From a virus: DNA of 57,019 nucleotides. The position numbers and the translations under genes are program-made. Each line of letters starts with the position of its first letter. Position 1 is the first letter of the stretch. The notes beneath the pieces are model-generated. The model was not told the origin of the DNA, searched no databases, and saw nothing but the letters and a program-made list of their open reading frames with translations. Positions 13,248 to 38,314 of this stretch are shown piece by piece. The stretch lies in IMG/VR virus record IMGVR_UViG_3300048839_000591, positions 1-57,019 of that record. The stretch is one strand, 5' to 3'.

Positions 13248-14057
13248 GTGCCCAGAGGCGAACATGCCCGCAAGTTGACGGACGAACAGCGTCGTGAATT
13301 GGTATGCCTGTACACGACGCCAGCCGAGGATGGAACCTGGACGGGCGTCTATGCGATTGCCCGCCATTTCGGGATTAGTTCGACGGCTGTCCAATACTGG
13401 TTGAACCGCATGGGTGTACCGCAACGAACGTCGCAAGAGGCGTTTGCTCATGCCAAGCGAACGAAGCCCATCAAGAACGTTCCGCCTGATGGTGAACCGG
13501 CTCCGCTCTGTCGCTGCGGCTGTGGTGAATCGGTTGCTTGGAACCGGCGTAAGAATCACTGGAATGTCTACGCAGTAGGGCACTATCGACAAGACGCGCC
13601 GTACAAACATCGTGAATGGCTGATTGACCAGTACGTTACGCAGAATCGCACCATCGTTGACATGGCCGCTGACTGTGGCGTCGATGTTACCCAGATTACA
13701 CGGTTCATGGATCGCTTCGGTATCGACCGGCGCAACAAATCTGAGGCGCGTATTGGTCGTCAAGCTGGTGCAAAGAATCCGGCCTGGAAAGGTGGCACGA
13801 CGCCTGAGCGTCAACGGCTCTATAAAACGCAAGCGTGGAAAGACGTTATCAAAGCGGTCTACGAACGAGACGGGTATCAATGTCAACGGTGTGGAGAAAC
13901 CAAGGCTAGACCGAAGGGTCGCCATGCGCACCACATTCGACCGTGGGCCGATGATGTGAGCCTGCGGTTCGAGTTGAGCAACTTGGTCACGCTCTGCGAG
14001 CGTTGCCATATTTGGGTGCATAGTCGGGAGAATGTGAATCGAGACTTCTTGGTTTAG
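13248..14057 (+). CDS. HNH endonuclease, free-standing, opposite strand
   Basis: 269 residues from GTG 13248 (AAGGAGG seven bases upstream). The N-terminus resembles an HTH DNA-binding region (YAIARHFGISSTAVQYWLNR). A CRCGCGESVAW zinc-like segment and a second HTH-like stretch (VDMAADCGVDVTQITRFMDR) follow. The C-terminal HNH domain has CQRCGETK, HAHHIRPWA, LSNLVTLCERCH and the final H. It is the only plus-strand gene in the late region, a sign of a mobile endonuclease. It lies directly upstream of the frameshifted glycosyltransferase. Confidence 0.9.
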   Translation: MPRGEHARKLTDEQRRELVCLYTTPAEDGTWTGVYAIARHFGISSTAVQYWLNRMGVPQRTSQEAFAHAKRTKPIKNVPPDGEPAPLCRCGCGESVAWNRRKNHWNVYAVGHYRQDAPYKHREWLIDQYVTQNRTIVDMAADCGVDVTQITRFMDRFGIDRRNKSEARIGRQAGAKNPAWKGGTTPERQRLYKTQAWKDVIKAVYERDGYQCQRCGETKARPKGRHAHHIRPWADDVSLRFELSNLVTLCERCHIWVHSRENVNRDFLV

Positions 14058-25376: not shown

Positions 25377-25753
25377 GCCGCTCTTCCTTCCACCAGCCGC
25401 ATCACAGCCCGTATCGCATCCTTGACCGCATCCGGCGTCCGCTCATCACGCCACACCATCACCACACGCAGCAGCTCAGTATCGTCGCCAATCGAGAGCC
25501 CCAGCGGGTCAAGTGGCGGGTAGCCAGCGGCCAGCAGCAGCCGGTCCCGTTCCTGGCTGGTGAGTCCCAGCGCATGGGCCAGTTGCAGCACCCGTTCGAC
25601 TCTCGGCCTCTTGCGGCCGTGCTCGTACTTGCTGATTTCGCCGTGGTCCTCGCGGTAGCCGGTGGTCCGTTCGGCAACGTCGAGCTGCGACAGGCCGCGT
25701 TCGGTACGCAGCAGCCGTAGGTGCGCGCCGAAGGTGTGGGGTTGGGCGCTCAT
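25373..25753 (-). CDS. XRE-family helix-turn-helix regulator
   Basis: 126 residues. The N-terminal HTH covers LRLLRTERGLSQLDVAERTT through GEISKYEHGRKRPRVERV. The C-terminal part (VWRDERTPDAVKDAIRAVMR) is helical. It is embedded in the early operon, so it is more likely a mid-infection regulator than the lysogenic repressor. Confidence 0.85.
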   Translation of the reverse strand: MSAQPHTFGAHLRLLRTERGLSQLDVAERTTGYREDHGEISKYEHGRKRPRVERVLQLAHALGLTSQERDRLLLAAGYPPLDPLGLSIGDDTELLRVVMVWRDERTPDAVKDAIRAVMRLVEGRAA

Positions 25754-26241
25754 GCCACGGCCTCCCAGAGTGTCTTTTGTCCGGTCGGATGCTGGTCAAT
25801 CCGTGGTCGTGAGGGACAATCCCAAGTCCCGCCAGCCGTCTGATAGAGCGCTTTCCAGCCCGCAGCTACCAGGCTGATTCCCGGCTCTTCGGCCAAGGTG
25901 TAGGTCACGAGCCGCCGATAGCCAAGCGCTTTGGTTGCACGCCAGGCGGAGCCATAGAGCATCGACGCGGCGTTCTTCGTCCCGTCAGTACAGCAGCGGG
26001 TTACTTCGAGCGTCCAGCCGTTATCGAGTCCACGCGCCACCGGACGCCCAACCGTCACGACACCGACGATGCGGTCACCATCGTTGACCGCAATCCCGAA
26101 TTTCCAACCGACGGGTGGCAGGTGATGGCGGTGATGCTGCCGGATGAACGCACACGCTTCGGCGTAGGTGATGGGCTGCAAGTGCAAGCTCACAGTTCCC
26201 GCTCCCCGCGTCGTGGCCGTGCCCGCGTTCGTGCCGGTCAT
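25750..26241 (-). CDS. XF1762-like GNAT-type acetyltransferase
   Basis: 163 residues. The order ITYAEACAFIRQHHRHH, VGVVTVGRPVAR, EVTRCCTDGTKNAASMLYG and TYTLAEEPGISLVAAGWK is the pattern of the phage XF1762-like group related to GNAT acyltransferases. It lies between the replication organizer and the XRE regulator. Substrate unknown. Confidence 0.75.
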   Translation of the reverse strand: MTGTNAGTATTRGAGTVSLHLQPITYAEACAFIRQHHRHHLPPVGWKFGIAVNDGDRIVGVVTVGRPVARGLDNGWTLEVTRCCTDGTKNAASMLYGSAWRATKALGYRRLVTYTLAEEPGISLVAAGWKALYQTAGGTWDCPSRPRIDQHPTGQKTLWEAVA

Positions 26242-27124: not shown

Positions 27125-28486
27125 TCAGGAGCGCTCCATTCTGCCTGCGCCGAATCGTTCGGAGAAGTGGGCCGTCTCGGGATTCCAGGTTAATTCCACG
27201 TCGCCAATCGGCCCGTTTCGATGTTTCGCGACGATCAGTTCGGCGTTGAATTCCGGCTGGCTGCTGTCATAGAGAAACGGACGATGCAAGAACATCACGA
27301 CATCGGCGTCTTGTTCGATGGTCCCTGAATCCCGTAGGTCTGAGAGGCGCGGTCTGGCATCGCTGCCACGGGTCTCGATCGCGCGATTCAGTTGCGCCAA
27401 TGCCAGCACCGGCACGTTCAGATGCCGCGCCAATCCCTTGAGCGCTCGGCTCACTTTGCCGATGTCCTGGGTTCGGTTCTCGCGGCTGTTGGGTACGTCG
27501 ATCAAGTGCATGTGGTCGATCACAAGCAGGTCAAAGGGCTTGCGCCCGTACATCTCGATACAGCGCGCCAGGATGTCTTTCAGCGAACTGGATGACCGAT
27601 CATCAACGTAGAGGCTCATGCGACCCAGTTCGCCAAAGGCGTCGGCTACTCGGCTCGCAGCTTTCCCGTCGTCATCATCCTGCTTACCGGCATGCCGTCG
27701 TTGTAGGTGCCGGTGCATGTTGACGTTCGCCAGTTGCGCCACCCAACGGGTGCGTAATTCGTCGCGGCTCATCTCAAGTGAGACGATGGCAACCGCTTTA
27801 CCCGTCTTGGCAATGCCGAGTGAGATCTGCGATTGCAGCGCCGTTTTGCCGACCGATGGACGGGCAGCTAGGACAATCAACTGGCCAGGCAGAAACCCGC
27901 CGAACTTCCGATCAAGTGGCCCAAACTGCGTCCGAATTGGCTGCACAACCGGCGCGTCAAGCGCGTCATAGGCAGCGGACAGATCGTCGCGCATATCAAC
28001 GAAGCCGGTCGATGTGGACGCGCTTCGGATGCGCGACATCCGTTCTTCAATGCGCGCTTCGAGTTCAGCCGGGTCGGTAATCGTGGCGGCATCAATGAGG
28101 TTCTGCTTGGTCGCCTCAGTCAACTGGCGATGAATCGACGCCTTCTTGACTTCCTCGGCATAGTCGATGGCATAGATCGCGGTCGGGACGACATGCTGCA
28201 ACTCTTGGAGCAACTTCAACAGCGGTCCCAGTTCATCCGGCGCGCAGCCTAACTGACTCTGCACCGTCACGTAGTCGGGGTTTATTCGCTTCTCGTAGCA
28301 GGCGACGATCGCACGGTAGATCTGCTGATAATCCGGGTCGGAGAAATCGTCTGGTTGCAGAATCGGCACAACCGAGAGGATCACGTCGCGGTCGATCATC
28401 ATCGACCCGAGAACGGCGGTTTCAGCAGCCAGATTGATGAGGGGGGAATTAATCTCAGAGGCTGGGGGAATGGTAGAATCGTACAT
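27125..28486 (-). CDS. dnaB: DnaB-like replicative helicase
   Basis: 453 residues. N-terminal DnaB domain (AAETAVLGSMMIDRDVI), Walker A ARPSVGKT (208-215), Walker B LLVIDHMHLID (320-330) and C-terminal motifs LSDLRDSGTIEQDADVVMF. This hexameric helicase unwinds DNA at the phage fork. No phage polymerase or primase is seen, so the host enzymes are presumably recruited. An extended -10 element lies about 90 bases upstream. Confidence 0.93.
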   Translation of the reverse strand: MYDSTIPPASEINSPLINLAAETAVLGSMMIDRDVILSVVPILQPDDFSDPDYQQIYRAIVACYEKRINPDYVTVQSQLGCAPDELGPLLKLLQELQHVVPTAIYAIDYAEEVKKASIHRQLTEATKQNLIDAATITDPAELEARIEERMSRIRSASTSTGFVDMRDDLSAAYDALDAPVVQPIRTQFGPLDRKFGGFLPGQLIVLAARPSVGKTALQSQISLGIAKTGKAVAIVSLEMSRDELRTRWVAQLANVNMHRHLQRRHAGKQDDDDGKAASRVADAFGELGRMSLYVDDRSSSSLKDILARCIEMYGRKPFDLLVIDHMHLIDVPNSRENRTQDIGKVSRALKGLARHLNVPVLALAQLNRAIETRGSDARPRLSDLRDSGTIEQDADVVMFLHRPFLYDSSQPEFNAELIVAKHRNGPIGDVELTWNPETAHFSERFGAGRMERS

Positions 28487-28573
28487 CAGTCGTTGCTCCT
28501 ACTCACACTAGGGCGACGGTCAGCGGCCGGGTTGGTGTTGCAAGCACCGCTCGGTCGCGTTCTATTTCCCCCG

Positions 28574-28582
28574 ATTGTATCA
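28574..28582 (-). promoter_or_regulatory. Extended -10 promoter candidate upstream of dnaB
   Basis: On the minus strand TGATACAAT (TG-n-TACAAT) lies in an AT-rich stretch after the HNH cassette. No good -35 box. It could restore transcription of the replication genes behind the inserted HNH element. Confidence 0.45.
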
Positions 28583-28614
28583 CAAAACAGCATAAAACGC
28601 CTCATTCGTACGCA

Positions 28615-28671
28615 TCATCGAACCACCGCGAACACCTTGGCACGCGGCGGCTTGAGCGGCTTGTCCTCTGG
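28615..28671 (-). pseudogene. Detached second copy of the 3' end of the upstream gene
   Basis: Read in one frame to TGA 28615, these codons give PEDKPLKPPRAKVFAVVR. This duplicates the C-terminus of the protein at 29190-30134 (DPSKPLKPPRARVFAVVR). The protein matches at 14 of the last 15 residues, but 12 of the 15 codons differ. It has no start of its own and follows the HNH stop immediately. It appears to be the original end of the gene, displaced by the HNH cassette. Confidence 0.75.
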
Positions 28672-28675
28672 GAAT

Positions 28676-29152
28676 TCAGGAATCTTGGTGAGGGCAGCGA
28701 CCATAGGCACCGATCGCTGCGTTGCAGTTCCAACACAGCACGCGATACCCATCAGGCCAACCCAGCTTGCGAAGTCGGCGGTATTGTTGAGAGCCGCCCT
28801 TGTGTCCCTCTGCGAGACGTGCGGCGTTACCGCCTCCATTGATGTGGTCAAGAGTGAGGAATTCGACGGTCGATTCTCCACAACAAGCACATGTCGGAGG
28901 ATCACCGCCATACGCGATAAGCGCCGCCAACCGCAAGCGCTCCCGCTCACTTCTTCGGTGATCGTAATACTGCTTGTTGTAATCGGGGTGTTTCGCTCGC
29001 CATTCACGAGCGTACGCGGCTCGATAGGCACGAGCTTCAGGAGAGTCGCTATCCCATTTCGCTTTACCGCTAGGACGCGGCCCTGGTTTGCGACAGACAT
29101 GACTTCCGTCTGTCCGCATGAATTGCTTGCAAATGGGACACCGTTCAGGCAT
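28676..29152 (-). CDS. HNH endonuclease inserted at the 3' end of a conserved gene
   Basis: 158 residues from ATG 29152 (GGAG nine bases upstream). N-terminal zinc finger (CPICKQFMRTDGSHVC), basic middle (YAREWRAKHPDYNKQYYDHR) and a C-terminal HNH core: CACCGESTVEFLTLDHINGG, RRLRKLGWPDGYRVLCWNCN. This family is common as free-standing homing endonucleases in phages. It is flanked by two copies of the 3' end of the neighbouring gene. Confidence 0.88.
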   Translation of the reverse strand: MPERCPICKQFMRTDGSHVCRKPGPRPSGKAKWDSDSPEARAYRAAYAREWRAKHPDYNKQYYDHRRSERERLRLAALIAYGGDPPTCACCGESTVEFLTLDHINGGGNAARLAEGHKGGSQQYRRLRKLGWPDGYRVLCWNCNAAIGAYGRCPHQDS

Positions 29153-29189
29153 GAGGCTTGGCTCCGCATAATGGAACTACCCTTACACA

Positions 29190-30134
29190 TTATCTTACCA
29201 CAGCAAACACTCTAGCTCTAGGCGGTTTCAGGGGTTTTGATGGATCACCCTTGACGTAGGGCGCGATCCACTTAGGTTGGTGAACTTGTCGTGAGCGATA
29301 CCACTGCTGACGCCAATGACCAGATACGACCCATTGGCAGGAGTACTCGCGATTCTCTACCGGCTGTGATCCATGTTTCGGGTGTGCTGTTCTTCGAAGC
29401 CGGATAACGCGCACTAACGGCACGTCGTCGATCATTCGTGCCGCTCGACGACGGGTCGGACGATCCGCCACCTTACGATCGGTCGCTAAGACCGTCTGCG
29501 AAATCAGCGCCCATGACGCAGCGAAATAGCGGAGCTTCATGGTCAGACGATTCAACTTATCAGGCGGGTCTGCGTTTGCTGCGCGGGCAGCAATGAACTC
29601 AAGGTCTTCGCCGCAATGCCAAGGAATATGCGTGACGGGTATGCCAGATGGATTAAGTCGCTCATCCGCTACATAGAACGTCACATAGAACGTCGAAGGG
29701 TACAGGCTCTCAGGTTCAGTGTTATCCATCAGCACGAAGTGCGATTCTTTCGGCGCAGGATCAACCACGATATTTCTGATACGAATCCAGCTCAACGCGG
29801 TTAGTGGTGCTATCCAGTCATCTCGCCACGGCTCAAGATTGAGTGGCCGTTCAAACCAAAGGAAGCCGTTGTCAGTCGGCATCTGATCAAACGTCAGCGT
29901 CCAGTTGGGCATGTTCTCTGCTGCTATCTCCAAGAACGAGCACATCTCAGATGACCAATAGAAGGGATCACCCAATAGAAGCGCCCGACGAGGAGCACCA
30001 AACATCATTTCTTTATTTGACTCAGATGCCGTAACGCGGCTAAGTTGTGCATTCCAGAGTGCCTGCCCACGTTCTGACTCCATGAAGTCAAGGATTTCCA
30101 CCTGTTTCGCAAGAGCGCGGGAGTACTCGTGCAT
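29190..30134 (-). CDS. Conserved phage protein of unknown function, 3' end replaced by recoded copy
   Basis: 314 residues, MHEYSRALAKQVEILDFMES. The C-terminal region CQWVVSGHWRQQWYRSRQVH then WIAPYVKG belongs to a family I recall from many phages and plasmids near replication/recombination genes. A faint resemblance of its GHWR region to AcrVA2-type anti-CRISPRs is speculative. The last 15 codons use AAA, AGA, GCT and TTT, unlike the GC-rich copy at 28615, and are followed by an HNH gene. Confidence 0.75.
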   Translation of the reverse strand: MHEYSRALAKQVEILDFMESERGQALWNAQLSRVTASESNKEMMFGAPRRALLLGDPFYWSSEMCSFLEIAAENMPNWTLTFDQMPTDNGFLWFERPLNLEPWRDDWIAPLTALSWIRIRNIVVDPAPKESHFVLMDNTEPESLYPSTFYVTFYVADERLNPSGIPVTHIPWHCGEDLEFIAARAANADPPDKLNRLTMKLRYFAASWALISQTVLATDRKVADRPTRRRAARMIDDVPLVRVIRLRRTAHPKHGSQPVENREYSCQWVVSGHWRQQWYRSRQVHQPKWIAPYVKGDPSKPLKPPRARVFAVVR

Positions 30135-30202
30135 CTACATCATCCGTTCGTCATTCGTATGCCGGTACGTACAGGGGCGAGCGACCCCGCCCCCGCGTGT
30201 GC

Positions 30203-30406
30203 CTATGCCTGCCCCCAGCGCCGCTCCCAGCGCTCCCAGAGAATCGCCACCTGCGACGATGCCGCGGCCTGGACGTTTGACGGCGCGCCCTCTTGTCGAT
30301 AGCCAATCAACCGTCCATAGGCCCGGCAGACGGCCTCGGCATCACGCAAGCGGTTCGGCAGTACGGCCTCGTCAAGCAGCACGTCGACGGTGATGCGTTC
30401 GTTCAT
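30203..30406 (-). CDS. Small protein, unknown function
   Basis: 67 residues from ATG 30406 (MNERITVDVLLDEAVLPNRL), overlapping the Bet/RecT stop as ATGA. Helical with an ARG/TRP-rich C-terminus (ILWERWERRWGQA). The 70-base gap after it holds no gene that I can see. Confidence 0.6.
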   Translation of the reverse strand: MNERITVDVLLDEAVLPNRLRDAEAVCRAYGRLIGYRQEGAPSNVQAAASSQVAILWERWERRWGQA

Positions 30407-31335
30407 TCGACGGCCTCCCCAGCCTTGGCCAGTTCTTGGTCCGCAACCCAACGGTAGAGCTTCCGTCCTTGGGTTTTTGTGATGAAGGCGACCGGCGCCT
30501 TGAACAGCTCGCGTGCCTGGTTGTCCAGCGCTTCACGGTCGATGCCGAGCGACGCGGCATAGTTCACCAGCGTCGTGACCTGGTCGTCAGTCAAGACATC
30601 GAGCTTGGCAGCCGGCGTAGCGGGTTCCTCTTCAGGTTGGTCCTCGTCGACCGCCTTCCCCTCGACCTCAATCACCCGGCCTTCGATGTAGACGCTCGCC
30701 TGTTCCTTGGTGAGTTCCTTGGATGACTCCACGCCGAACTGCGCGCCTAACACCTCATGCCGCGCCTCATCCCCCACGCCAGCCGCTTTATCGAGTGTGT
30801 GAATCGCCTTGATTTGCTCGTAGGACAGCGACTCTTCCAGGCCCGGAATCGGAATCGGGAAGGCCGCACGCAGCGCACGATGGAGCGCACGCTTCTGGGC
30901 CATCGTCACCGCGTCGTTCTTCGAGAGCGGGTTGCGGTCCTGTGGGCCATTGGCCCGGCCATAGGCGACGATCGGGAAGCGCCGGTCCTTGCGATAGACC
31001 GCGCATTTCCAGATGACTTCCTCCTTAGCAGGCTTGAGCGATTCGAGTTCCCACGGCTCAATACCGAGCCACTGGAAACCGTCATAGGCCGGGTGGCGGT
31101 CGGCAATGCGAATACGCCCGTCGATGGTCACATATGGGTTGCCCTGGTACGGAATCAGCTCCCCTAAGAACGGGTCGAGTTCGTAGGCCAAGGCGATGCG
31201 GGCAATCTCCATCGCACCCGCTTTGTTCACGTCCTTCGGCCACTTGGCCAAGAGCTTCTGGCTCAGGTGCTCGGTCTCCTTCTGAAGGTCAACGGGCTTC
31301 TGTTCGATGCGTGCAATCGCACGTTCTTCGCTCAT
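30403..31335 (-). CDS. RecT/Bet-family single-strand annealing protein
   Basis: 310 residues from ATG 31335 (MSEERAIARIEQKPVD), overlapping the previous stop as ATGA. The core IARIALAYELDPFLGELIPY, PYVTIDGRIRIADRHPAYDG and KNDAVTMAQKRALHRALRAA is the RecT/Bet DNA-annealing domain. An acidic linker and a helical C-terminal domain follow. It promotes strand annealing in phage recombination; no partner exonuclease is recognised. Confidence 0.88.
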   Translation of the reverse strand: MSEERAIARIEQKPVDLQKETEHLSQKLLAKWPKDVNKAGAMEIARIALAYELDPFLGELIPYQGNPYVTIDGRIRIADRHPAYDGFQWLGIEPWELESLKPAKEEVIWKCAVYRKDRRFPIVAYGRANGPQDRNPLSKNDAVTMAQKRALHRALRAAFPIPIPGLEESLSYEQIKAIHTLDKAAGVGDEARHEVLGAQFGVESSKELTKEQASVYIEGRVIEVEGKAVDEDQPEEEPATPAAKLDVLTDDQVTTLVNYAASLGIDREALDNQARELFKAPVAFITKTQGRKLYRWVADQELAKAGEAVE

Positions 31336-31781
31336 GTGTGTGCTCCCCAATTCGTCTGTTCTTGCTTCGGATTGACTTTGATGTACGGCGCGCTGGCCTT
31401 CGATTCCCAGGCTGCCTGCGCTTCGTCCTCAGTCAGTACGCCGCGTTTGACGAGCTTCTTGACCTCGCTCGTGGCAATCGAGAGCGTGCAGTGGTCAAGC
31501 ACCTCAGCACGTTTCGGCAGCCGGTCAGCGTTGTAGGCACCGCGGTTCTGACGAATCAGTAGCACCTCAACGTCGGCGTTCTCGGCATAGCTGATGTCCG
31601 GCTCCGCCATCGCCTCAGTGAGTTCGCGTTTGGCCAGTGAGAGTTGTTCAGCCAGCGCCTCACGTTTTTCGATCACTGGGAACCATTCCTCGACAAAGGC
31701 GGCGAGTTCCCGTTCACAGGCCAGGTAGGTCTCCATAGCGGCGTTGATGCGTTCGGTCGGTGTGATTGTTTCAGTGCTCAT
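31332..31781 (-). CDS. Helical protein preceding the annealing protein
   Basis: 149 residues from ATG 31781 (GGAGGCATCA upstream): MSTETITPTERINAAMETYL, a coiled-coil centre (EKREALAEQLSLAKRELTEA) and a Lys-rich end. Position next to the RecT-like gene suggests a recombination accessory role, but there is no recognisable motif. Confidence 0.65.
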   Translation of the reverse strand: MSTETITPTERINAAMETYLACERELAAFVEEWFPVIEKREALAEQLSLAKRELTEAMAEPDISYAENADVEVLLIRQNRGAYNADRLPKRAEVLDHCTLSIATSEVKKLVKRGVLTEDEAQAAWESKASAPYIKVNPKQEQTNWGAHT

Positions 31782-34463: not shown

Positions 34464-34648
34464 GCGGCTACCGCCGTTTCAATCATGTCCTCGGCAAGCT
34501 CTTCAACATGCACCTTGAGGTACAGGTCGATACTGAGCCGGATCACTTCCGCCATGCTCTTGCCGCGCTTCTTGGCGAGCCGTTGCAATTGCTCATGCTG
34601 GATCGTCGTGATGCGTGTGCTCGTGAAATGTAGGTGATCGTCGTTCAT
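34460..34648 (-). CDS. Ribbon-helix-helix regulator (CopG/Arc-like)
   Basis: 62 residues: MNDDHLHFTSTRITTIQHEQ, then LAKKRGKSMAEVIRLSIDLY. A short beta strand followed by two helices is the RHH fold. It is the first gene of the leftward (lytic) operon, opposite the repressor, the position of a Cro/antirepressor. It has a strong promoter with an operator between -35 and -10. Confidence 0.82.
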   Translation of the reverse strand: MNDDHLHFTSTRITTIQHEQLQRLAKKRGKSMAEVIRLSIDLYLKVHVEELAEDMIETAVAA

Positions 34649-34672
34649 GGTTCCTCCTATATCGGTACACCC

Positions 34673-34702
34673 ATATTATCACTCCGATATCGGTACTGTC
34701 AA
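34673..34702 (-). promoter_or_regulatory. Leftward early promoter
   Basis: TTGACA (34702-34697) and GATAAT (34680-34675) with 16 bases between, or TAATAT with 18. A perfect -35. The operator CCGATATCGG lies in the spacer, so bound repressor would block polymerase. Confidence 0.78.
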
Positions 34703-34730
34703 TAGACATGTTCGGCGATATCGCTACACT
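34703..34730 (+). promoter_or_regulatory. Rightward promoter for the repressor
   Basis: TAGACA (34703-34708), 16-base spacer, TACACT (34725-34730). Weaker than the opposing promoter, with the operator GCGATATCGC in the spacer, consistent with autoregulation. Confidence 0.5.
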
Positions 34731-34778
34731 GATATCGGTGTAGGTGATATGGAGTGCTGTGTGCGAGGAACAACGACA

Positions 34779-35405
34779 ATGGAAACAGTCGGTCAGATCG
34801 TGCGAGCATGGCGTAAAGAAAAGAAGATGACGCAAGAGCGCCTTGGCGAACTGATTGGCAAAGATCAGTCGTATATCTCTGAGGTCGAAACAGGGCAAAT
34901 CAAAGTGCCCGGCGACACCGTCCTCTTAGCCATCGCAAACGCGATGGAGATGTCGCCAGATCCATTGTTTGATGCTGGTGGGTATGAGATTCATCGAAGG
35001 GTGGTGGTGACTGATGAGTACCTAAGCGTGCCAGTGCAGGGCACCGTGCTGGCTGGTGGAAGTGACAAAGGGGCTCCAATGAACGAGATCCGCGTTACCC
35101 CGGAAAAGATTCAGGGTGCGCGCGATCCCTATGGACTTTATGTCTCTGGTGATGACCTGCGGGGATTTACCATTCTGTCTGGTGATGTGGTGATTGTCGA
35201 ACCGCTGTTTGACCGCAGGCCGAATGATCGCCAGCTCGTGGTGGTCAAAGACGGCAATGGACTCACCTTGCGACGATGGTGTCAGCGAGGGGACGCGGTT
35301 GAACTCGAAGACGCGGAGGGAAGGATCGTTCATCGTGTACAGGCAGGGGAAGACATTGAGGTGCAGGCACTATTCATAACATTTGAACCACTCGCACCAC
35401 GTTAG
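34779..35405 (+). CDS. CI-like repressor with S24-type fold, dyad lost
   Basis: 208 residues from ATG 34779 (GAGGAA upstream); ATG 34749 is an alternative. The N-terminal XRE HTH is VRAWRKEKKMTQERLGELIG and SYISEVETGQIKVP. The C-terminal half matches the LexA/CI fold: VPVQGTVLAGG (Ala-Gly cleavage-like site), GLYVSGDDLRGFTILSGDVV and VVVKDGNGLTLRRW. In active members the Ser is in GDSM and the Lys in TxKR; here they are Asp and Arg. It probably maintains lysogeny and binds the operator array, but should not self-cleave. Confidence 0.85.
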   Translation: METVGQIVRAWRKEKKMTQERLGELIGKDQSYISEVETGQIKVPGDTVLLAIANAMEMSPDPLFDAGGYEIHRRVVVTDEYLSVPVQGTVLAGGSDKGAPMNEIRVTPEKIQGARDPYGLYVSGDDLRGFTILSGDVVIVEPLFDRRPNDRQLVVVKDGNGLTLRRWCQRGDAVELEDAEGRIVHRVQAGEDIEVQALFITFEPLAPR

Positions 35406-36151: not shown

Positions 36152-37288
36152 ATGGCAGAGCCGGGTATCTATAAGAAACAGGGGAAAACCGGCGTTAGCT
36201 ATCAGGCGATAGTGGACCTGGGCCGGGACCCAGCCACCGGCAAGCGACGTCAGAAGCGCAAGACCTTCAAGACGCGACGTGATGCCCTCGACTGGCGACG
36301 CAAGACGCTCACCGAGGTGCGGCAGCGCGTGTTCACCGAGCCGAGCCGGGAGCTGTTCAGTGTGGCGGCGGACCACTGGCTGGCAACGCGGGATGTGGAC
36401 GGCAGTACCGAACGGCTCTACCGCCGCGCGCTGACTGGGCACATCCTGCCCGTCTTTGGCGATACCGCGCTCTCCGACATTTCCCCGCGCATGGTCCAGG
36501 ATTTCTACAATGAGAAGCGCCACTACAAAGGCCGGCACGTCTACCGTGTGGTCCTCAATGGTGTGCTCCAATTGACCGTCGATGAGGGGCTGTTACTCCG
36601 AAACCCCGCCGCGCGTGCCAGCGGCATGACCCAGCCCAAGACCGAACGCGAGATCCAAGCCTGGGATGTTGAGACGTTGGCGCGCTTCCTGTCCTACACC
36701 GATGGTGACTATCTCTATCCCGTCTGGTGGGTACTGGCCCATACCGGCCTGCGCATCGGTGAGCTGGTCGCGCTCCGCTGGGAGGACATCGACCTCGATG
36801 CGCGGGTCATCCATGTGCGGCGCACCGAGACCGTCGATGCCGAGAGCCGGCGCATCATTGCCGACGCGGCCAAATCGGACCACTCACGACGGGATGTGAC
36901 CATCGACCCAGAGACGGCGCGTATCCTCGCACGCCAACGGATTCAGCAAGCCGAGCGACGACTGGCCCATGGCCGGGACTGGCAGGACACGCAGGCGGTG
37001 TTCGATCGCGGCAATGGCGACTACCTGACGACCGGCCAGGTTCGCGGCACCTTTGGCCGTCGTGTGGCCTCCGGCGGCTTCCCCGTATTGACACCCCATG
37101 GTTTGAGGCACAGCCACGCAACTGCGCTGATTATCGCGGGCCGTCCTATCCATTATGTCAGCAAGCGGCTAGGTCATGCCAACGTGAGCATCACGCTCAA
37201 TTTATATTCCCACGTGCTTCCAAATACCGAACACGAAGATGCCGAGGTGTTTGCTGAGATCATGCGCCGAGCCAGGCAGGCGGGCTAA
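36152..37288 (+). CDS. int: Tyrosine-family integrase
   Basis: 378 residues (AGGAGCG upstream). N-terminal arm-binding domain (GIYKKQGKTGVSYQAIVDLG), SAM-like core-binding domain (about 65-160) and a catalytic domain with R201 (HTGLRIGELVALRW), K241, H316-x-x-R319 (TPHGLRHSHAT), H342 (GHANVSIT) and nucleophile Y352 (LNLYSH). It recombines attP with the host attB for lysogeny. Confidence 0.95.
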   Translation: MAEPGIYKKQGKTGVSYQAIVDLGRDPATGKRRQKRKTFKTRRDALDWRRKTLTEVRQRVFTEPSRELFSVAADHWLATRDVDGSTERLYRRALTGHILPVFGDTALSDISPRMVQDFYNEKRHYKGRHVYRVVLNGVLQLTVDEGLLLRNPAARASGMTQPKTEREIQAWDVETLARFLSYTDGDYLYPVWWVLAHTGLRIGELVALRWEDIDLDARVIHVRRTETVDAESRRIIADAAKSDHSRRDVTIDPETARILARQRIQQAERRLAHGRDWQDTQAVFDRGNGDYLTTGQVRGTFGRRVASGGFPVLTPHGLRHSHATALIIAGRPIHYVSKRLGHANVSITLNLYSHVLPNTEHEDAEVFAEIMRRARQAG

Positions 37289-38199: not shown

Positions 38200-38221
38200 G
38201 CCTGCCTCCAATCGCCGCTTG

Positions 38222-38314
38222 TGAGAAGGGCAGGACTCGAACCTGCACGCTGGGCTTTCGCCTGATCAGCACCAGAGCCATCTCTGGCGCGTCTCCCACT
38301 TCCGCCACCTTCTC
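38222..38314 (-). tRNA. Type II tRNA-like gene with non-canonical anticodon loop
   Basis: 93 bases. Acceptor GAGAAGG/CCTTCTC is perfect, the T arm is GCAGG-TTCGAGT-CCTGC and the D arm GCG...CGC contains GGG; the variable arm is long (GCTG...CAGC around GGC-GAAA-GCC). The body resembles tRNA-Leu/Ser. The anticodon arm is CCAGAG-ATGG-CTCTGG, so a 5-bp stem leaves six loop bases and no U33, and no anticodon can be assigned. CCA is not encoded. It could be a decayed tRNA, an att-derived copy or a tRNA mimic. Confidence 0.7.

Follow-up and report, generated by a model that had tools for sequence, protein, structure and literature searches.

A phage HNH endonuclease gene set between two versions of one gene's 3' end: a probable end-replacing homing cassette

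The window analyzed here is the whole 57,019-nucleotide stretch of IMG/VR virus record IMGVR_UViG_3300048839_000591. On its minus strand, a recT gene, a target gene, an HNH endonuclease gene, a second copy of the target's 3' end and dnaB follow one another in that order (Table 1). The 314-residue target protein terminates in KPLKPPRARVFAVVR* and matches the phrog_15934 profile with an E value of 1.1e-23 (best stretch residues 197-305). This family is diverse, its members being 25-33% identical to the window's protein in the family alignment. The HNH protein retains its catalytic and zinc residues, as judged from the phrog_2255 match and an alignment with 9 relatives, in which C88, C91, D102, H103, C140, N142, C143, N144 and CPH155 were invariant. 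No sigma-70-like promoter was found in the 37-nt leader. The detached copy had been described, in an earlier sequence-only reading of this DNA, as lacking a start of its own; none lies near by, but no stop interrupts the frame back to an ATG at 29190. The resulting 191-codon open reading frame overlaps the target stop and covers the HNH region in another frame, and was not taken as a gene.

Table 1. Features of the cassette locus and its flanks in the window.
Feature	Position	Strand	Context	Basis
RecT-family recombinase gene	30403-31350	-	upstream of target, same strand	PF03837, E 8e-7
Target gene, 314 aa, phrog_15934 family	29190-30134	-	between recT and dnaB	ORF, profile, family alignment
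Putative attached replacement 3' end, DPSKPLKPPRARVFAVVR-stop	29190-29246	-		GC3 5/18; KGD where family has KGP
37-nt leader, target stop to HNH start	29153-29189	-
HNH endonuclease ORF, 158 aa, ends CPHQDS-stop	28676-29152	-		phrog_2255 HNH, E 7e-8
Putative displaced native 3' end of target, PEDKPLKPPRAKVFAVVR-stop	28615-28671	-		GC3 14/18; PEDKP; HNH-free subfamily ends nearest
DnaB replicative helicase	27125-28486	-	downstream, same strand	PF03796, E 4e-77

Other genes give the window the appearance of a temperate phage: it encodes a repressor with HTH and S24-peptidase domains (34647-35405, plus strand, GC3-poor at 0.51) and a tyrosine integrase (36152-37288, plus strand). A tRNA-like gene (38221-38314, minus strand; ARAGORN, anticodon undetermined) lies about 0.9 kb away from the integrase gene and could be near an attachment site. 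A second HNH endonuclease gene (13248-14057, plus strand; PF01844, E 8e-10) includes an HTH-like stretch and runs opposite to its neighbours; the general tail scan detected no displaced gene ends beside it. Two genes from dnaB, the product of 25750-26241 (minus strand) has a weak match, short of the curated cut-off, to the Mom DNA-modification family (PF25680, E 1e-4), and DNA modification by this Mom-like gene is possible. Searches against Rfam returned nothing credible in the window between 28200 and 30300.

The two ends of the target gene are alike in protein and divergent in codons. The attached end reads AAA CCC CTG AAA CCG CCT AGA GCT AGA GTG TTT GCT GTG GTA AGA (29193-29237) before a TAA stop (29190-29192), and the detached end reads AAG CCG CTC AAG CCG CCG CGT GCC AAG GTG TTC GCG GTG GTT CGA (28618-28662) before a TGA stop (28615-28617). 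Direct reading gives identity at 14/15 residues, 3/15 codons and 31/45 bases, exactly the figures that the sequence-only reading had put forward (14/15 residues, 12/15 codons differing, about 31/45 bases). We measured this similarity with an end-anchored comparison of upstream gene tails against the sequence behind the HNH gene, taking permuted pairs as null; a filtered gapped version drops the window's Pro/Val-rich tail. The window scored 73, with at most 34 among 3,161 mismatched pairs of HNH loci, and no second tail pair at 14/15 was present on either strand of 3.2 Mb of scanned loci. The likeness of the two ends is not a product of chance. Over 18 codons, third-position GC was 5/18 in the attached and 14/18 in the detached end (Fisher p 0.007). 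The attached copy is indeed the AT-richer one, as claimed earlier, but this is not peculiar to it: GC3 is also low in the whole target gene (0.54) and the HNH gene (0.52-0.53), both differing from dnaB (0.70) and recT (0.76) with p about 1e-6 each.

Several comparisons bear on which end is native. The detached end resembles dnaB and recT in GC3 (p 0.79), in agreement with the earlier remark that its codons are typical of this phage, and the attached end is unlike these genes (p 0.00015) and falls below the remainder of its own gene (p 0.027). Among 78 phrog_15934 family ends, the conserved KG is followed by P in 75, E or D comes next in 66, and the fifth residue is P in 75. Scored on this family ending, the detached PEDKP reaches 17.4, equal to the family median, and the attached DPSKP 4.4. 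The detached copy had also been said to keep GPEDKPL-like residues. It reads FPEDKPL, so the match to the family ending begins at P and holds from there on.

A strict DNA pattern, KPLKPPR[AV][KR]V, gave no match; a looser one, GP[DE]DKPLKPP, retrieved a target subfamily free of HNH genes. L307, L308, L309 and L310 end in KGP[DE]DKPLKPP...FAV[VT]R (for example KGPDDKPLKPPRATIFAVVR in L307 and KGPDDKPLKPPRTTVFAVVR in L310), with no HNH gene in the sequence examined. Over 18 codons they share 41, 36, 37 and 40 of 54 nt, respectively, with the detached copy and 29, 31, 29 and 31 of 54 with the attached copy, although such ends are mostly GC-rich, which alone favours the GC-rich copy. This DNA-level alignment with HNH-free relatives, proposed beforehand as a check, thus placed the subfamily closer to the detached copy. 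HNH-free relatives with the PLKPP ending have KGP[DE]DKPL, with which the detached copy agrees from P on, against KGDPSKPL in the attached copy. The native end is therefore most likely the detached copy, and the attached copy most likely arrived with the cassette. No near relatives of the window were found in phages, in genome contigs or, with the target, HNH or dnaB as query, in viral contigs, and the 25 plasmid matches were all below 60% identity, with no close relative among them. The nearest HNH-free relative of the target gene is about 44% identical over the C-terminal 128 aa. As no close HNH-free relative was found, we infer the event in the window by analogy and from the family consensus.

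The sequence-only reading went further and proposed that the attached end had been synonymously recoded. Family pairs with 13-15 of the last 15 residues the same share between 3 and 12 codons, and those sharing the fewest are mostly only about 40% identical overall. The window's two ends share 3 codons, with 5.0 expected under independent choice (P 0.19). Since family tails diverge as much and this value is unremarkable, the most fitting reading is that the attached end comes from an ordinary diverged homologue. Natural homologues with as few as 3-6 codons in common make a purpose for the recoding superfluous, and we set aside synonymous recoding as an adaptation. The whole target gene being GC-poor, the import could even extend to all of it.

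A tblastn search with the window's HNH protein led to Arthrobacter Korraviruses, in which an HNH gene lies behind DNA polymerase I; these proteins are about 46-51% identical to the window's in the core and 38-40% over the alignment. The native polymerase ending of HNH-free Korraviruses is ...TGGAACAAGTAG, and the HNH-free Korra and Kalizoi end in GATGCGAAACCCTGGAACAAGTAGACTTAACTAG. In Jumboset, the polymerase end GATGCGAAGGAATGGAATCGTTAA is followed by the HNH gene ...TGCCCTCA and then by CTGGAACAAGTAGACTTAACTAG, and the polymerase body is identical to Glenn's over the 396 nt compared. Glenn and Kalizoi match at 100% in both flanks. Polymerases next to an HNH gene have one of two end types, GATGCGAAGGAATGGAATCGTTAA (DAKEWNR) or ...ATCTGGAATGGAGGCAAGTAG (IWNGGK), and in most HNH-bearing Korraviruses the CPH codons of the HNH gene run directly into TGGAACAAGTAGACTTA. 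The WNK polymerase end was found in 8/8 HNH-free phages inspected, and TGGAACAAGTAG lay at or just behind the HNH end in all 11 HNH-bearing ones. Similarly, HNH-free Lasagna and HNH-bearing Bodacious present the same pattern with different downstream sequence. Suppi and Wayne have polymerase bodies 99% identical, HNH genes 69% identical and different end types; in PinkFriday and Kittykat the body is 82% identical, the HNH gene 99%, and the end type is the same. The end type tracks the HNH type and not the polymerase body, so that end and HNH gene move together and bear the mark of a mobile unit with a history separate from that of the gene body. By eye, Glenn (L198) seems to carry two stacked polymerase-end remnants at 2701-2780, CTGGAACAAGTGACTAAGG... 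and GTCTGGAACAAGTAG, and HNH-free Bennie (L203) has a short stretch behind the polymerase (803-880) resembling the start of an HNH gene. These putative relics suggest that cassettes have entered and left the same site more than once.

A profile of related HNH proteins returned 80 viral loci. A confident displaced protein end was detected in only about 4 of them; in the remaining loci the ends may be too short for detection or located elsewhere. In L228, the HNH gene lies behind a terminase-like gene (named by eye, not by profile). L290 is 95% identical to it in protein and has no HNH gene in the sequence examined. The two terminase genes are 87% identical over 1,700 nt, matching up to L228:2186, and the last 40 nt of L290 match the displaced copy at L228:2971-3010 (90%, E 3e-9), about 785 nt beyond the junction, and not the attached end. 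The comparison with empty relatives that had been suggested for the window thus came out as predicted at the Korravirus polymerase and at this terminase, where the gene end is replaced relative to near-identical empty sites. In L262, the HNH frame passes from CPH into LAKKKRITFKEE-stop, and the preceding gene ends in LARKKRISTPKE-stop (p 0.0003). L270 and L272 have a 36-residue displaced match, in another frame, to an RNase H-like gene (named by eye). An apparent mirror image of the cassette, at the 5' end, is suggested by our reading of two loci, without statistics: HNH frames of another type are fused to a displaced native terminase 5' end in L292 (about 727-1479) and L295 (about 468-1238). 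The native terminase start in L295, MSDYPKTALQYCIDVTSGKIPA, is fused to the HNH frame, and the terminase now begins with the diverged MQKDYEKIANEYCKDIISGKIPV. Two further possible displaced ends, in L211 and L219, were too weak to count.

Taken together, these observations make it probable that the window harbors a mobile homing cassette composed of the HNH gene and a substitute 3' end for the target gene. The sequence-only reading had already proposed that a cassette with an endonuclease invaded the 3' end, brought a new end and pushed the old one away, and this proposal is supported by the HNH-free subfamily, the Korraviruses and the L228/L290 pair. The HNH protein would cut or nick native-type target ends, in the conserved KG/PEDKPL region, in phage copies, and repair would copy the cassette from an HNH-bearing phage, with homology provided on the left by the target body and on the right by the displaced end together with the DNA beyond it. 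The product would be the target body joined to the donor end, encoding a complete protein, then the HNH gene, then the recipient's old end as a leftover fragment. The restored gene would presumably escape recutting because the donor end has diverged in sequence, and the displaced end would be retained for its role as right homology arm, an idea already put forward for WHO elements. Cleavage, its site and the resistance of the attached end are predictions, as is the notion that the event in the window followed the same route as in the Korraviruses and L228.

Ordinary recombination could in principle yield the same order of features: a diverged homologue would be swapped in passively, for example by the phage's own RecT, with the HNH gene as passenger and the right crossover just before the old end. 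The low GC3 common to the whole target gene and the HNH gene fits this course of events, and the recT gene adjoins the target. We nevertheless consider it unlikely, given that the layout recurs with related HNH genes at unrelated genes (polymerase, terminase, RNase H-like) and that the Korraviruses change only the last few codons and the HNH gene next to an identical body, where a swap of long segments predicts otherwise. We give considerably less weight to a scenario in which the target was duplicated in tandem, the HNH gene then inserted and the second copy was mostly lost, which would make the ends old paralogues. Two diverged copies of one end do stand in tandem, and family members about 40% identical do retain near-identical tails. 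However, the tail scan of family loci found no tandem gene copies, and the empty Korravirus and L228/L290 sites are single-copy, with the native end contiguous with the body.

Because HNH genes often live in introns, the second copy might also be the 3' exon of a gene split by a group I intron, an intein or translational bypass. This is scarcely credible here: the target frame is complete, with a stop before the HNH gene, the HNH frame fills the space between the two ends but for 37 nt and about 4 nt, and no Rfam intron match was obtained in 28200-30300 even at E 1. We accordingly rejected a group I intron or intein carrying the endonuclease. In L199, an HNH relative stands before a major capsid gene, and the sequence that follows after 2785, AGATATAGTC, resembles the end of a group I intron; this unconfirmed case would lend the split-gene reading some plausibility, and Rfam gave no intron match at L199.

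Free-standing homing endonucleases are usually thought to be intergenic, or to depend on introns or inteins inside genes. A cassette that brings a substitute gene end would be a third route into essential genes. It would account for odd ends of phage genes beside HNH genes, and genes carrying such cassettes would be chimeric. On balance we favour the view that the window represents a widespread, unnamed phage class in which an HNH gene travels with a substitute end of its host gene, at 3' ends (polymerase, terminase, phrog_15934, RNase H-like) and, mirrored, at 5' ends (terminase, L292/L295), the HNH frame often running into the displaced end, which then supplies its C-terminus and stop (Jumboset, L228, L262). 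Korraviruses are suited to direct tests of cutting, resistance and transfer, since numerous isolates, some carrying the cassette and some lacking it, grow on a single laboratory host; HNH-free Korra and HNH-bearing Jumboset have Arthrobacter sp. ATCC 21022 in common.

Among phage systems, T4-type free-standing homing endonucleases (seg, mob) are comparable in that, in the sections consulted of a review (PMC2988022), their HNH genes adjoin conserved phage genes, occur sporadically among related phages and have carrier resistance attributed to target sequence differences. Those sections describe mobE and mobA insertions that split genes (nrdA, gene 60) and, unlike the window, no duplicated, replaced gene end. 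The ShiLan insertion in phage methylases is an HNH element whose first 11 residues resemble host sequence beyond the insertion site, but it is an in-frame internal insertion and is not described as an end-replacing cassette (PMC11855218). No phage example of such a cassette appears in the sections consulted of the T4 mobile-element review (PMC2988022), a phage nuclease survey (PMC10448857), a Skunavirus HNH paper (PMC12724721) or a paper on 46 Arthrobacter phages (PMC5513430). We found no phage description of this architecture in the open-licence PMC literature, which by itself does not prove novelty.

The parallel with yeast WHO elements at FBA1, drawn by the sequence-only reading, is apt in architecture. 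There, the cassette consists of a resistance-conferring 3' end and an endonuclease gene, the old 3' end is pushed downstream and serves as homology, and repeated rounds stack remnants (PMC7282813). In the window, too, the endonuclease gene is preceded by a replaced 3' end and followed by a displaced 3' fragment, and Glenn's two seemingly stacked remnants recall WHO stacking. In contrast to the window, the WHO endonuclease is HO-related with a zinc finger, nuclear and meiotic, targets FBA1, and has demonstrated allele-specific cleavage; the window's protein is an HNH endonuclease with a phrog_15934 target, outside the HO/WHO family and its FBA1 target. Closer still are mobile endonuclease ORFs with C-terminal duplication in fungal mitochondria, known from Allomyces atp6 and from Glomus atp6, atp9, cox2 and nad3 (PMC3630166). 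As in the window, the endonuclease ORF lies just behind a gene with a foreign, diverged C-terminus and the native end is found downstream of the ORF. In Glomus atp6, identity between the two ends is 63.5% for DNA and 91% for protein (PMC3630166), compared with 69% and 93% in the window. Those ORFs encode LAGLIDADG or GIY-YIG enzymes in mitochondria, whereas the window encodes an HNH enzyme in a phage. Fungal mitochondria and yeast WHO elements thus already provide examples of the architecture, the mitochondrial ORFs being closest in layout, even in their divergence figures, and WHO elements offering the best-tested mechanism.
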